The notes beneath the pieces were generated by a model that saw only the letters and a program-made list of their open reading frames with translations, was not told the DNA's origin and did not search any database. Position numbers and translations under genes: made by a program. Below, in pieces: positions 58,692 to 64,000 of a stretch of DNA of 64,000 nucleotides; position 1 is the stretch's first letter; every line of letters begins with the position of its first letter. Source of the DNA: Arthrobacter sp. 9AX (lineage in GTDB: Bacteria; Actinomycetota; Actinomycetes; Actinomycetales; Micrococcaceae); assembly GCF_902506095.1 (NCBI RefSeq), contig NZ_LR733293.1, positions 3,718,264 to 3,782,263 of the forward strand, given 5' to 3'.

Positions 58692-60500
58692 ATGGCCAAG
58701 CAAACTTCATTTTTTCGATCCATCAGTCGCCTCTACCCTCATGTCCGGCCCATCATTCCCCGGCTTCTGTTGGGACTCCTCTGCGCGTTGATGGCCAGCG
58801 TTGTTGCCCTGGCCATCCCCCAGGTCCTCCGGGTGCTGGTCAACGAATCGCTCGAGGCGGGCGGGGCAACCGAAGCGGTTTGGATTTCCGCCGGCGTCAT
58901 CCTGGTACTGGGCATAGCCGAGGCAGGACTGGTGGCCCTGCGCCGGCAGTTCGTGATCAACCCCGCCACCTCCGTGGAAACCGCCATGCGGGTTTCGCTG
59001 TATGACCATCTCCAGGACCTTACCGTCTCCTTCCACGACCGCTGGGGCTCCGGCCAGCTCCTGTCCCGCGCCATGACGGACCTGAACTTCCTGCGCCGGT
59101 GGATGGCCTTCGGCGCCATCATGCTGGTGGTCACCACCCTCACCGTGATTATCGGCATCACGGTCATGTTTGTGATGAGCTGGCAGCTGGCCCTGATCTT
59201 TCTGGCCGCAGCCGCGCCCATCATGGCCTACAGCTTCCGCTTCCGGACCCGTTTCAGCAGGGTGGCGCGCCGCAGCCAGGACCAGGCCGGCGACCTCGCC
59301 ACCACTGTAGAGGAATCAGTCCACGGCATCCGTGTGCTGAAGGCCTTCGGACGCAGCCGGGAGGCGCTGGAAAACTTCAACGAACAGGCTGAGGAACTCC
59401 GCCAGACGGAGATTGAAAAGGCGCGCCACCAGGCAACCTTCACCATGGTGGTCACCCTGCTCCCCGAACTCGCCCTCGGCGCCGGACTGGTGGTGGGAGT
59501 CATGCTGTGCGCCAGCGGCCAGCTGAGCATTGGTTCGCTGGTGGCCTTCTTCGCCACGGCCGCCGTGATGGCCTCGCCCGTGGAATTTTCCGGCATGCTG
59601 CTCGCCATGGCACTGACTGCCAAGACCGCCGTCGACCGCCACTTCGAGGTGATGGACACTCCCAACACCATCAGCAGCCCTCCGGAACCCCAACGGCCGC
59701 ACCAACTGGCCGGCGCACTCCGCTTCAACAACGCCACCTTCGCCTTCGAGGATGCACCGGACAAGCCCATCCTCAAGGAGATCACCCTCGACGTCCGGCC
59801 CGGCGAAACCATGGCGCTGGTGGGAATCACCGGTAGCGGCAAGAGCGCGCTGATCCAACTGGTCCCGCGCCTGTTCGACGTCACCGGCGGGTCCATCACC
59901 ATCGACGGCGTGGACCTGCGGGACTTCGAGGTGGCGGAACTCCGCCGGATCGTCGCCGTGGCCTTCGAGGACACCACCCTGTTCTCCAACTCCGTCCGGG
60001 ACAACGTCCTGCTCGGTGCCCCCGTGCGCTCTGAAGCTGTCCTCGACGAAGCCCTGGACGTGGCCCAGGCGCACTTCGCCTACTCCCTGCCGGAGGGCGT
60101 GGACACGCTGATCGGCGAGGAAGGCCTCAGCCTTTCCGGCGGGCAGCGGCAGCGGATTGCCCTGGCCCGCGCCATCGCCGCGCGGCCCCGCGTGCTGGTC
60201 CTGGACGATCCCCTGTCCGCCCTGGACGTCCACACCGAGGAGCTGGTGGAAACGCGGCTCCGGGCCGTGCTGAAGGACACCACCACGCTGATCGTTGCGC
60301 ACCGCCCCTCCACCGTGGCGCTGGCGGACCGGGTGGCGCTGCTCGAGGACGGCCGCATCACCGCAGTTGGCACCCACACCGAACTGCTGGCAGGCAACCA
60401 CCACTACCGGTACGTGATCGCCAGCCTGGACCCGGAACCCCGCGACCTGGACTCCGAACTGTCCGCCCTTGAGGACCAGGCAGAGGAAGTGACCCGATGA
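58692..60500 (+). CDS. ABC exporter half-transporter 1 (degenerate Walker B)
   Basis: A 602-residue type IV ABC exporter: six TM helices (1-310), then a nucleotide-binding domain with Walker [13 protein letters not shown], signature [14 protein letters not shown] and Walker [13 protein letters not shown]. The usual catalytic Glu is Asp (LDD), so its own site is probably inactive. It pairs with the next gene, which it overlaps by ATGA. Multidrug or lipid export is the usual role. Confidence 0.9.
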
Positions 60501-62323
60501 GCACCACCACCTTTGGCACGGCCAACGAGGACAACGCCCACCTCAGCAAAAGCGACAGCAGGGCGGTACGACGACGGTCGCTGGCTTTGTTGCGCAGCCT
60601 GATCCGGCCGGTGCGGCTGCGGTTCTGGTTGACGATTGCCACGGTGGTCCTTTCGCAGGCGGCCCGCGTGGCCGGCCCGGCCCTGATCGCCTTCGGCATC
60701 GACCACGCACTGCCCGCCCTGCAGGCCGGAGACAACCTCCCCCTGGTGTTCACCGGCGTCGCCTATCTTCTTGCTGCCATTGCGACGGCGGGACTCACCG
60801 CCCTGTATGTGACCTCCACGGCGAAACTCAGCCAGGCCATGCTCCTGGACCTGCGCCTGCGGGTATTCCGCCACACGCAGCGGCTGAGCCTGGAGTTCCA
60901 CGAGAGATACACCTCCGGCCGGATCATTGCCCGGCAGACCTCGGACCTGGAGGCCCTTCGCGAACTCCTGGATTCCGGCGTCAGCTCGCTCGCCTCCGGC
61001 ATGCTGTTCATGATCTTCACCGCGGTAACGGTGTTCGCGCTCGACTGGCGCAGCGGCCTGCTGGTGCTGGCAGCCGGTGTCCCCATGTTCTTCCTGGCCC
61101 GCTGGTACCAGAAGCATTCCCAGATCGCGTTCCGCGAATCCCGGGTGGTGTCCGCCCGTTTGATTGTGCACTTCGTGGAGACGATGACCGGCATCCGCGC
61201 AGTGAAGGCTTTCCGCAAGGAGCAGGAGAACGCTGACCGCTACGGAAAGCTCGCCGAGGACTACCGGCTGGTGACCGTCCGGTCCATCAACCTCAACGGC
61301 ATCTTCCAGCCGGGGCTGGTGCTGATCGGGAACGTGTGCGTGGCCGTGGTGCTGCTCCTTGGCGGTTTCCGCGTCCTCACCGGCGACCTGGCGGTGGGTG
61401 TCCTGCTGGCGCTCATCCTCTCCACCAAGCGGTTCTTCCAGCCGGTGGACCAGATGGCCATGTTCTACAACTCCTTCCAAAGCGCGCAGGCGGCGCTGGA
61501 GAAGGTGTCCGGACTCCTCGAGGAAGTTCCCACCGTCCGCCCGCCCAGGAATCCCGTGGCCCTTCCCCGCGCCAAGGGAGCGGTCGATTTCAAGGATGTG
61601 GAATTCCGGTACGGGGACGGTCCGCTCATCGTTCCCCGGCTGAACCTGCGGATCCCGGCAGGCCAGACGGTAGCGCTGGTAGGCCAGACGGGCGCGGGGA
61701 AGTCCACCCTGGCCAAACTGATCGCCCGCTTCTACGACGTCTCTTCCGGTTCCCTGACCCTGGACGGCGTGGACCTGCGCAACCTCAGCACCACGGACCT
61801 GAGGCGGAACATCGTAATGGTCACCCAGGAGGCCTTCCTGTTCAGCGGTTCCGTTGCCGACAACATCGCCCTGGGCCGGCCGGAGGCATCCCGGGCCGAA
61901 ATCGAGGAAGCCGCGAAGGCGGTGGGCGCACACGACTTCATCCTGGAATTGCCCGAGGGCTATGACACCGATGTGAACAAACGCGGCGGCCGGGTCTCGT
62001 CCGGGCAGCGGCAGCTCATCAGCTTCGCCAGGGCATTCCTGGCCCGGCCGGCCGTGCTGATCCTTGACGAGGCCACCTCGTCGCTGGACATCCCCTCCGA
62101 GCGGCTGGTGCAGACCGGCCTGGCCCGGCTGCTGGCGGACACGGACGCCGCCAGCAGGACGGCTCTGATCATTGCGCACCGCCTGTCCACGGTGGAAACC
62201 GCGGACCGGGTCCTGGTGGTGCAGGACGGCCGGATCGTCGAGGACGGCTCTCCCGCGGGGCTGATCGGCGGCGGCGGACGCTTCGCCGACCTTCACGGCG
62301 CGTGGAAGGACTCGCTGGTCTGA
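60497..62323 (+). CDS. ABC exporter half-transporter 2 (canonical Walker B, altered signature)
   Basis: 608 residues: six TM helices, Walker [16 protein letters not shown], signature [15 protein letters not shown] (S for the first G of LSGGQ) and Walker [13 protein letters not shown] with the catalytic Glu. The degenerate features are complementary to those of the partner, as in asymmetric heterodimers such as TM287/288 and BmrCD. Confidence 0.9.
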
Positions 62324-62407: not shown

Positions 62408-62484
<77 letters not shown>

Positions 62485-62629: not shown

Positions 62630-62878
62630 TTACATCGGATCAGGCCAGTTGCCGGTGTAGGTGGTGACTGTGCCCTCGCCGCTCGTGTCCGTGGCGGGCT
62701 TCTCCTTAGCGGGCTTCTCCTTGACCGGCTTTGACATCGGATCGGGCCAGTTGCCTGTGCGGGCTTCCGCGACGTTCCCGGTGTCAACAACCGAACCCAC
62801 TGACAGAACGGCCGGAGCCGCAGCAGAGAAAGCCAGGGCTCCGGCCAGAACGGCAGCAGCTGCAATCTTCTTCAACAT
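62630..62878 (-). CDS. Secreted pro-peptide with two TGNWPDPM copies (candidate peptide pheromone)
   Basis: 82 residues. A Sec signal (MLKKIAAAAVLAGALAFSAAAPA) and a short spacer are followed by TGNWPDPM (41-48), a Lys/Pro linker with KEKPAKEKPA, and TGNWPDPM again as the last eight residues (75-82). The two DNA copies differ at two of 24 bases. GAGGA precedes the ATG, and a TTGACA promoter lies upstream. A repeated short peptide at the C terminus of an exported pro-protein, divergent from an HTH-TPR regulator, is the layout of RRNPP pheromone systems in Firmicutes. That function is inferred; the alternative is a small cell-wall or antimicrobial peptide. Confidence 0.78.
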   Translation of the reverse strand: MLKKIAAAAVLAGALAFSAAAPAVLSVGSVVDTGNVAEARTGNWPDPMSKPVKEKPAKEKPATDTSGEGTVTTYTGNWPDPM

Positions 62879-62937
62879 ATGTGTTCCTCAATACGAGTCG
62901 GATTCGTTACAAAGCCAGCACTGTCCTTGTTGACATA

Positions 62938-62977
62938 CATTGTAAAATGTTTTCCACAGAGGCTGTCAAGCCTCTGA
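62938..62977 (-). promoter_or_regulatory. Pro-peptide promoter with palindromes over -35 and -10
   Basis: On the minus strand TTGACA (62,965-62,970) and TACAAT (62,940-62,945) are 19 bp apart. The -35 is the centre of the perfect palindrome CAGAGGCT-TGAC-AGCCTCTG (62,958-62,977). The -10 lies in ACATT-TTAC-AATGT (62,938-62,951). Both are symmetrical and 20 bp centre to centre. They are likely operators for the adjacent HTH regulator. Confidence 0.6.
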
Positions 62978-63010
62978 TGCAAAGAGTGTCCGGAAAAGGA
63001 GGAAATCCCG

Positions 63011-64000
63011 TGGGCAACGGATTCGGGGAGAAGCTCCGGGCGGAGCGGCTTGAACGCGGTCTGACACAGGCTGAGCTGGGCAAGGATCTTTACTCCCCCA
63101 GTTACATCTCCCTGCTTGAAACCGGCCGACGGGAACCCACCGCGGAGGTGATCGACGAGCTGGCGAAGAGGCTTGAGCTTGCCCCCAAGGCCCTTGAGGC
63201 CTGGAGCCAGCCCATCACTGTCAGCGACGCCGAGTACGTCCTGGCGGGCCTGTACGCGCGCCAGGCGTGGGACCTGCGGGACTATCCGCTGGCCGCAAGC
63301 CATGCAGCTACCGCCGCACAGATCGCCCTTGACGGCAAGAACACCAGTGCCTGGTGGAACATGTCCTATATGCAGGCCGAATGCCTGATGAAGCACGGCG
63401 ACCTGCAGGAGTGCCGGGAGATCATCCAGCGCCTGCTGGAGCACCCCATGGCCACCGAGTCGGTGGGCCTGGGCGTCCGGGCCCGGCAGATGCTGGCAAC
63501 TGTATGCCAGCGGCAGGGCCAGCTGTCAATGGCTGTCAATTACGCCCAGGAGGCCATGGAGCTTTCGCGGCAGCTGCCCAGGAGCTCCACCATCATCGTG
63601 GGTGCCCTGCGGGTCCTGATTGGCGCCCTTGCGGAGAGTGGCCGGCTGGACGAAGCGTGGACATCCTGCCAGGACCTTCTCGCCCAGGTGGACGAGCACG
63701 CGATGTCCCAGCTGGCCGGCGAGGTCGCCTGGGTGGTGGGCAACGTGGCCTTCATGCGGCACGACTACTCCGAAGGGGTCAAGCACCACGAACGTGCCGC
63801 GAAGCTTCTGTCCCCTGCCAACGACATTGAGCTCTGGGCGCGGTTCAACAAGGCATCCGCCGCGGTGCGCCTGTCCTCCGGCATCGTCGAGCCGGAGACC
63901 CTGTCCTCCATCGAACGGGCAGAGCTCGCCTTCTCCATCGTGGGCGGAACCAAGAGCGACGAACTGGAGGTCGCCTTCATCCGTGCCCGGTGGCTGTACC
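63011..64000 (+). CDS. XRE-HTH / TPR-repeat regulator (RRNPP-like), C terminus outside window
   Basis: At least 330 residues. The N-terminal XRE helix-turn-helix spans about residues 4-58 (FGEKLRAERLERGLTQAELG, SPSYISLLETGRREPTAEVI). After it come tandem helical TPR-like pairs (YVLAGLYARQAWDLRDYPLAASHAA, WWNMSYMQAECLMKHGDLQE, GQLSMAVNYAQEAMELSRQL, WVVGNVAFMRHDYSEGVKHHERA). This is the domain plan of Rgg/PlcR/PrgX-type receptors that bind short peptides in the TPR groove. GTG 63,011 has AAGGAGG 7 nt upstream. The gene runs off the right edge in frame. Confidence 0.85.

Follow-up and report, generated by a model that had tools for sequence, protein, structure and literature searches.

A candidate RRNPP-like peptide-pheromone family with xGxWPx units beside TPR receptors in Micrococcaceae

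The precursor gene, its divergent neighbor and the region between them

The far end of the window (the whole stretch of 64,000 nucleotides of Arthrobacter sp. 9AX DNA that was analyzed) carries two divergent genes, one for a small exported precursor and one for an HTH protein with TPR repeats. The precursor gene (62630..62878, - strand), kept in orthologues, is preceded by a GAGGAAC ribosome-binding site and encodes 82 residues comprising an export signal, a spacer and two copies of the octapeptide TGNWPDPM. Copy 1 occupies residues 41 to 48 (62735..62758, - strand) and copy 2 residues 75 to 82 (62633..62656, - strand), the latter forming the exact C terminus; the boundaries of both were set by within-precursor identity. 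The N-terminal export signal (MLKKIAAAAVLAGALAFSAAAP...AEA; 62759..62878, - strand) is a prediction from a K-rich basic start, a hydrophobic core and an AxA motif, made without SignalP; its cleavage site is undetermined, and the AxA (AEA) motif immediately precedes copy 1. The exported pro-protein of the initial annotation, with one octapeptide given twice and the second time at the very C terminus, is confirmed, its export being judged from these features. Of the 825 open stretches of at least 40 aa in the window, no other contains an octapeptide of ordinary complexity more than once, and the finding is far beyond chance, since the whole genus conserves the gene, its repeats and the copy at the exact C terminus. 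One further WPDPM coding match in the genome (L003) lies alone in an unrelated region and was rejected as due to chance. A pair of overlapping half-size ABC exporter genes (58692-62323, + strand) lies upstream of a tRNA-Pro gene (62408-62484) and the peptide gene, a synteny partly retained in L106 and L127.

The neighboring receptor gene (63010..64000, + strand, continuing to 64275; full gene at L034:5274-6539) starts at a GTG at 63010 behind an AGGAGG-like ribosome-binding site and encodes a 421-aa protein. Pfam places HTH_31/HTH_3 (residues 5 to 64) and TPR_12/TPR_2 domains in it above the cut-offs, bearing out the XRE-HTH and TPR-like repeats first read in this neighbor; neither Pfam nor NCBIfam gives it a family-level assignment. 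The nearest named orthologue, from P. siccitolerans 4J27, is 98% identical, in keeping with a Pseudarthrobacter-like genome. An AlphaFold2 (AF2) model built with 26 relatives (pLDDT 91.8) has the HTH followed by eight TPR A/B helix pairs. Residues R84, W116, W241, N245, W276, N280, R287 and W328, all on TPR A helices, are invariant in both the HTH-TPR and the TPR-only class of receptor, and the B helices conserve mostly alanines. In Rap3T, a conserved asparagine (N226) anchors the peptide (PMC11343458); N245 and N280 are invariant asparagines on A helices here, their residue equivalence with N226 not being established.

Structure comparison aligns the receptor model with pheromone-bound Rap (Z 24), with NprR (Z 22.5 apo, 20.9 with NprX) and, end to end, with AimR (Z 20-21). 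Since equally high scores go to MalT and APC/C subunits, the fold fits an RRNPP receptor without being diagnostic of one. Among TPR-containing PDB entries, the closest relative by receptor profile is PlcR (E 5.5e-7, over the HTH and first TPRs). In RRNPP(A) receptors the N-terminal effector is either an HTH (PlcR, NprR, Rgg, PrgX, AimR) or a three-helix bundle (Rap, NprR). Three gene-level features of that group are present here: the superhelical TPR receptor, by Pfam and the AF2 model; the N-terminal effector, in the HTH class only (HTH at residues 5 to 64); and the adjacent small exported propeptide gene with a C-terminal pheromone, in the precursor, export again being read from sequence features. 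The N-terminal three-helix bundle by which Rap acts on response regulators is not present; the HTH class carries its HTH instead.

The intergenic region spans 131 bp (62879..63009) and, by sequence comparison, contains overlapping face-to-face promoter elements; the divergent arrangement described initially stands, while its distance of 132 bp does not. A conserved TTGACA-N4-TTGTAAA-N17-TGTCAA element (62930..62969) is common to HTH-receptor loci and was found, with small lineage changes, in HTH-receptor/peptide loci of at least seven genus-level clades. Read on the - strand, it offers the peptide gene a -35 TTGACA, a 17-18 bp spacer (18 bp in the window) and TTACAA. It is missing from the TPR-only loci examined and from the L181/L185/L205 clade, and a sigma-70 consensus scan called no promoter in the intergenic region. 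The quasi-palindrome ACGAGTCGGATTCGT (62893..62907) in the 5' leader of the peptide gene, conserved at genus level only, is a candidate operator for which there are no binding data. When a regulon was sought through both sequences, neither recurred convincingly in the genome; the promoter element has no second genomic copy at up to 3 mismatches and, being single-copy, leaves the regulon out of view.

Conservation of the pair and the repeated unit

The precursor is present in 61/61 same-genus genomes searched, and a divergent precursor lies beside all 80 named receptor orthologues (Pseudarthrobacter, Arthrobacter and Paenarthrobacter), 124-146 bp upstream in 79 of them. The eightieth is L249, first taken as peptide-less; the gene is present there and its second copy has decayed. 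L246 and L253 have lost the second octapeptide copy through a frame change. These three related species retain copy 1 with copy 2 disrupted, which suggests, as far as sequence comparison can tell, that the internal copy is sufficient. The initial expectation that homologous regulators would stand beside a small exported ORF ending in an NWPDPM-like motif holds across the 80 orthologues (copy 2 being decayed in those three), and linked exported ORFs with an altered motif also accompany regulators in several other genera.

Receptor relatives occur in 144 of the 295 Micrococcaceae genomes drawn. The search for small exported ORFs upstream of 150 receptor loci, representing 149 distinct receptors, assigned a divergent exported precursor with xGxWPx (WP) units to 90 receptors; L199 was counted as peptide-linked by script on a match that is probably spurious, and the first receptor of L155 lies at a contig start. 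HTH-TPR receptors adjoin purC in nearly all peptide-bearing clades. The octapeptide-receptor locus is real, but it is not unique to this DNA, being family-wide in Micrococcaceae. A search of the phylum by receptor profile yielded weak relatives only (G092, G627 and G732), none with an adjoining WP peptide; four candidates per genome were scored at E 1e-20, so that remoter ones may have escaped. Neither viral relatives nor any phage or mobile context were found.

About 59 of the 149 receptors have no linked peptide, and they group in clades. One HTH-TPR clade of 20 such loci (L115, L116, L118, L119 and 16 related) mostly still lies beside purC, and another (L151 and related) sits between ksgA and an Rpf-type gene, which encodes DUF348, G5 and transglycosylase-like domains. 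Six-frame reading of the whole loci of peptide-less receptors produced no convincing peptide. Some lineages have lost the linked peptide gene, so a receptor can outlive its signal; the receptors left may be orphans, sense an unlinked peptide or have another role. Regulators lacking any linked peptide gene had been named as grounds for refutation, and such regulators do exist, but only in derived clades.

The extent of the unit was determined from 157 unique precursors, 127 of them with at least two copies, with offsets counted from the Trp. Copies within one precursor agree at 0.99-1.00 from offset -3 to +2, at 0.92 at +3 and at 0.88 at +4, and agreement is about 0.33 at offsets -4 and +5; between different precursors, agreement at offset -3 is only 0.42. 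This pattern indicates that the copies in one precursor change together and that the stretch jointly kept is one octapeptide. Recent duplication does not fully explain this, since the copies are near-identical despite 1135 synonymous codon differences, set against 101 residue changes in 3595 codon comparisons. As a comparative inference, the pattern points to selection acting on an octapeptide that is released or recognized. Precursors carry up to eight units, and the motif varies by lineage, in multi-copy forms (AIGNWPDPM x6, FVGNWPDAV x5, PGIWPDS x3, VGDWPH x8, PAVGNWPDRF x7) and in single C-terminal forms (IGWWPN, RVGSWPF, RVNNWPY, MGNWPH).

Wall-associated and antimicrobial precursors can likewise carry a short motif in repeats behind a signal peptide, and the small protein could be exported for a structural, antimicrobial or binding role, its gene being regulated by an HTH-TPR neighbor that does not bind the peptide. 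The receptor could then read another ligand, and the persistence of some receptors without a peptide would fit. The precursors themselves speak against this: no wall anchor is seen on them, and single-copy forms terminate exactly at WP[DNHFYG].

Peptide-receptor co-variation and the proposed mechanism

Stronger, if indirect, evidence on recognition comes from 125 peptide-receptor pairs placed on a receptor tree: when octapeptide offset -3 changes, so do residues 167, 132 and 127 of the receptor (family-wise p 0.001, 0.002 and 0.006, respectively). No significant co-change was seen at offsets -1, +2 and +3, where changes are too few. Ile at offset -3 is paired with M-L-H at 127/132/167 in 69/69 pairs, and among genus members Val goes with I-W-Q (25/26) and Thr with M/L-L-Q (8/9). 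The window pair itself has Thr at offset -3 with M-L-Q. The same receptor residues, 127/132/167, lead again on a genus-only tree built without codons 100-190 (p up to 0.002). Offset +4 (M/V/A) co-changes with residue 196 (p 0.010). On an independent purC tree, offset -3 is again associated with 167 and 127 (p 0.0003 and 0.0017), and also with 195; in 6/6 changes, offset +4 goes with 196. In the AF2 model, the A helices of TPR2 and TPR3 end at residues 127 and 167, respectively, 132 begins the B helix that follows 127, and 196 lies within the A helix of TPR4; by general TPR geometry, with no distances measured, these positions form one face of neighboring repeats. Co-change of the octapeptide's end residues with TPR residues is what a matched peptide-receptor pair would be expected to display, and the assignment of the neighboring regulator as the octapeptide's receptor is supported to that extent, binding itself being inferred.

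The same data weigh further against an exported structural or antimicrobial peptide that its regulator does not bind, since the end residues of the unit change together with particular TPR residues and the remaining precursor does not; we regard that reading as quite unlikely. They also raise a different possibility, that the pair is real and the co-variation reflects linkage alone, with alleles traveling together by homologous recombination and no physical recognition. The genes are only 131 bp apart, and silent third-codon positions of codons 121-180 are likewise raised in co-change, so that allelic exchange of DNA segments does contribute. Linkage alone, however, predicts a peak in codons 1-120, nearest the peptide gene, and their silent sites are not raised; it also predicts co-change in signal-peptide or spacer residues, and 28 control precursor traits (signal peptide, spacer, flanks and copy number) reached a minimum p of only 0.027. 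The peaks are instead single residues in neighboring TPRs, and the I/MLH pairing extends outside the genus. Linkage as the sole cause is, in our judgment, very unlikely.

We conclude that the cell very probably secretes TGNWPDPM as a signal, coded in repeated copies beside the gene for its receptor. That the two genes make up a peptide-pheromone system complete in itself, operating as the RRNPP systems of Firmicutes do, is the reading to which we assign a probability of roughly 0.8; gene organization, conservation, unit boundaries, predicted fold, co-variation and the conserved promoter element are its computed support, while export, processing, uptake, peptide binding, DNA binding and the regulated genes are inferred. 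The precursor would be exported by Sec, and proteolysis would free identical octapeptides, here two TGNWPDPM per precursor, to be re-imported, presumably through an oligopeptide permease. Inside the cell, the octapeptide would bind the receptor, a cytoplasmic HTH-TPR protein, in the concave groove of its TPR domain; TPR2-3 (127, 132 and 167) would read the N-terminal residue of the peptide, and the C-terminal one would lie near TPR4 (196). Binding would then alter the action of the receptor on the shared divergent promoter region, closing an autoregulatory loop.

Whether such a signal passes between cells is a separate matter. The peptide might act within its producer or on the producer's surface, as a self-sensing of export or growth, and the data do not separate self-sensing from cell-to-cell signaling, a caveat that applies equally to Phr systems. 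Precursors with up to eight units and lineage-specific variants nevertheless fit a diffusible signal better, and we consider confinement to the producer unlikely.

Among the closest known systems, the RRNPP-like pair resembles PlcR-PapR of the Bacillus cereus group in having, next to an HTH-TPR regulator, a small exported precursor whose C terminus holds a short peptide. It differs in belonging to Actinomycetota, in its divergent peptide gene (downstream in PlcR-PapR), in its 2-8 identical copies with a W-P core, and in having eight predicted TPRs where PlcR has five, a purC neighbor and no known regulon. It shares with AimR-AimP arbitrium and NprR-NprX the HTH plus TPR receptor, the exported precursor and an end-to-end alignment (Z 20-22), but lacks phage or mobile context and viral relatives, and has another motif and another output. 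Multi-copy propeptides are known in Bacillota, where 1-4 putative mature pheromones occur per propeptide (PMC11343458); the precursors here belong to Actinomycetota and carry up to eight copies, near-identical within a precursor.

Actinomycetota are thought to signal mainly by small molecules. Across 13,513 complete bacterial genomes, RRNPP-type systems were found only in Firmicutes and their phages (PMC9765709), and a large RRNPPA detector study covered Firmicutes and viruses only (PMC10075063). Our literature search found no description of the xGxWPx motif and no RRNPP system in actinobacteria, so that the octapeptide motif, initially put forward as undescribed, still appears to be so. If the reading is true, this would be the first RRNPP-type signaling in Actinomycetota, and the match between peptide and receptor could be read from a testable residue code (I with M-L-H, V with I-W-Q). 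Quorum sensing by linear peptides would then enter the phylum through a system that is widespread and vertically conserved among Arthrobacter-like soil bacteria.

TPR-only receptors and neighboring c-di-GMP genes

At 32 receptor loci there is a second class, TPR proteins that lack an HTH; most come with single-copy precursors of Phr-like form (...IGWWPN, ...RVGSWPF). These receptors keep the same type of peptide adjoining with no HTH for binding DNA, which also counts against a neighbor that merely regulates the gene of an unrelated exported peptide. Genomic neighborhood analysis separates the two classes sharply: a HAMP-GGDEF-EAL gene is next on the same strand at 26/32 TPR-only loci vs 0/91 HTH-TPR loci, and a DUF7793 gene at 12/32 vs 0/91. 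L172, L173, L175, L192 and L204 are among the TPR-only loci with Phr-like precursors that lie directly upstream of the HAMP-GGDEF-EAL gene. Like Rap-Phr of Bacillus, the TPR-only paralogues have single-copy precursors built of a signal peptide, a spacer of ~20 aa and a C-terminal pheromone, and alignment with peptide-bound Rap (Z 24) adds to the likeness. Unlike Rap, the models lack the N-terminal three-helix bundle (the TPR-only model begins at its first TPR, with neither bundle nor HTH), the gene order is divergent, and coupling is to the HAMP-GGDEF-EAL gene, not to Spo0F/ComA.

In the genome from which the window comes, a GAF histidine kinase gene and a HAMP-GGDEF-EAL gene are direct neighbors (L306:2957-5828; G000:C5), and in other Arthrobacter genomes the peptide, TPR and DUF7793 genes are lodged between the two. 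Relative to those cassette-bearing genomes, the junction is an empty site. Both systems occur in five same-genus genomes, with differing peptides ([IV]GNWPDPM and [IV]GWWP[NDH]).

A pheromone input to c-di-GMP at the TPR-only loci is possible, an inference from gene order. Transcription, the output first proposed for the regulator, is consequently not the only one to be considered, as the class without an HTH is tied to a GGDEF-EAL gene. The system as a whole reads as RRNPP-like in Actinomycetota, with a second branch that is probably c-di-GMP-coupled. For the full scheme we have only a slight preference: an xGxWPx pheromone family of Micrococcaceae in which HTH-TPR receptors at purC would act on transcription, and TPR-only receptors on c-di-GMP via HAMP-GGDEF-EAL, from a cassette inserted between the histidine kinase and the enzyme. 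We know of no earlier direct peptide-pheromone input into c-di-GMP, and this one, if true, would be the first; through the second branch, cell density may set c-di-GMP.

Tandem TPR-only receptor pairs were observed at L154, L155 and L161, and in at least two such pairs each receptor has its own precursor variant (e.g. IDDWPH and VGNWPG).
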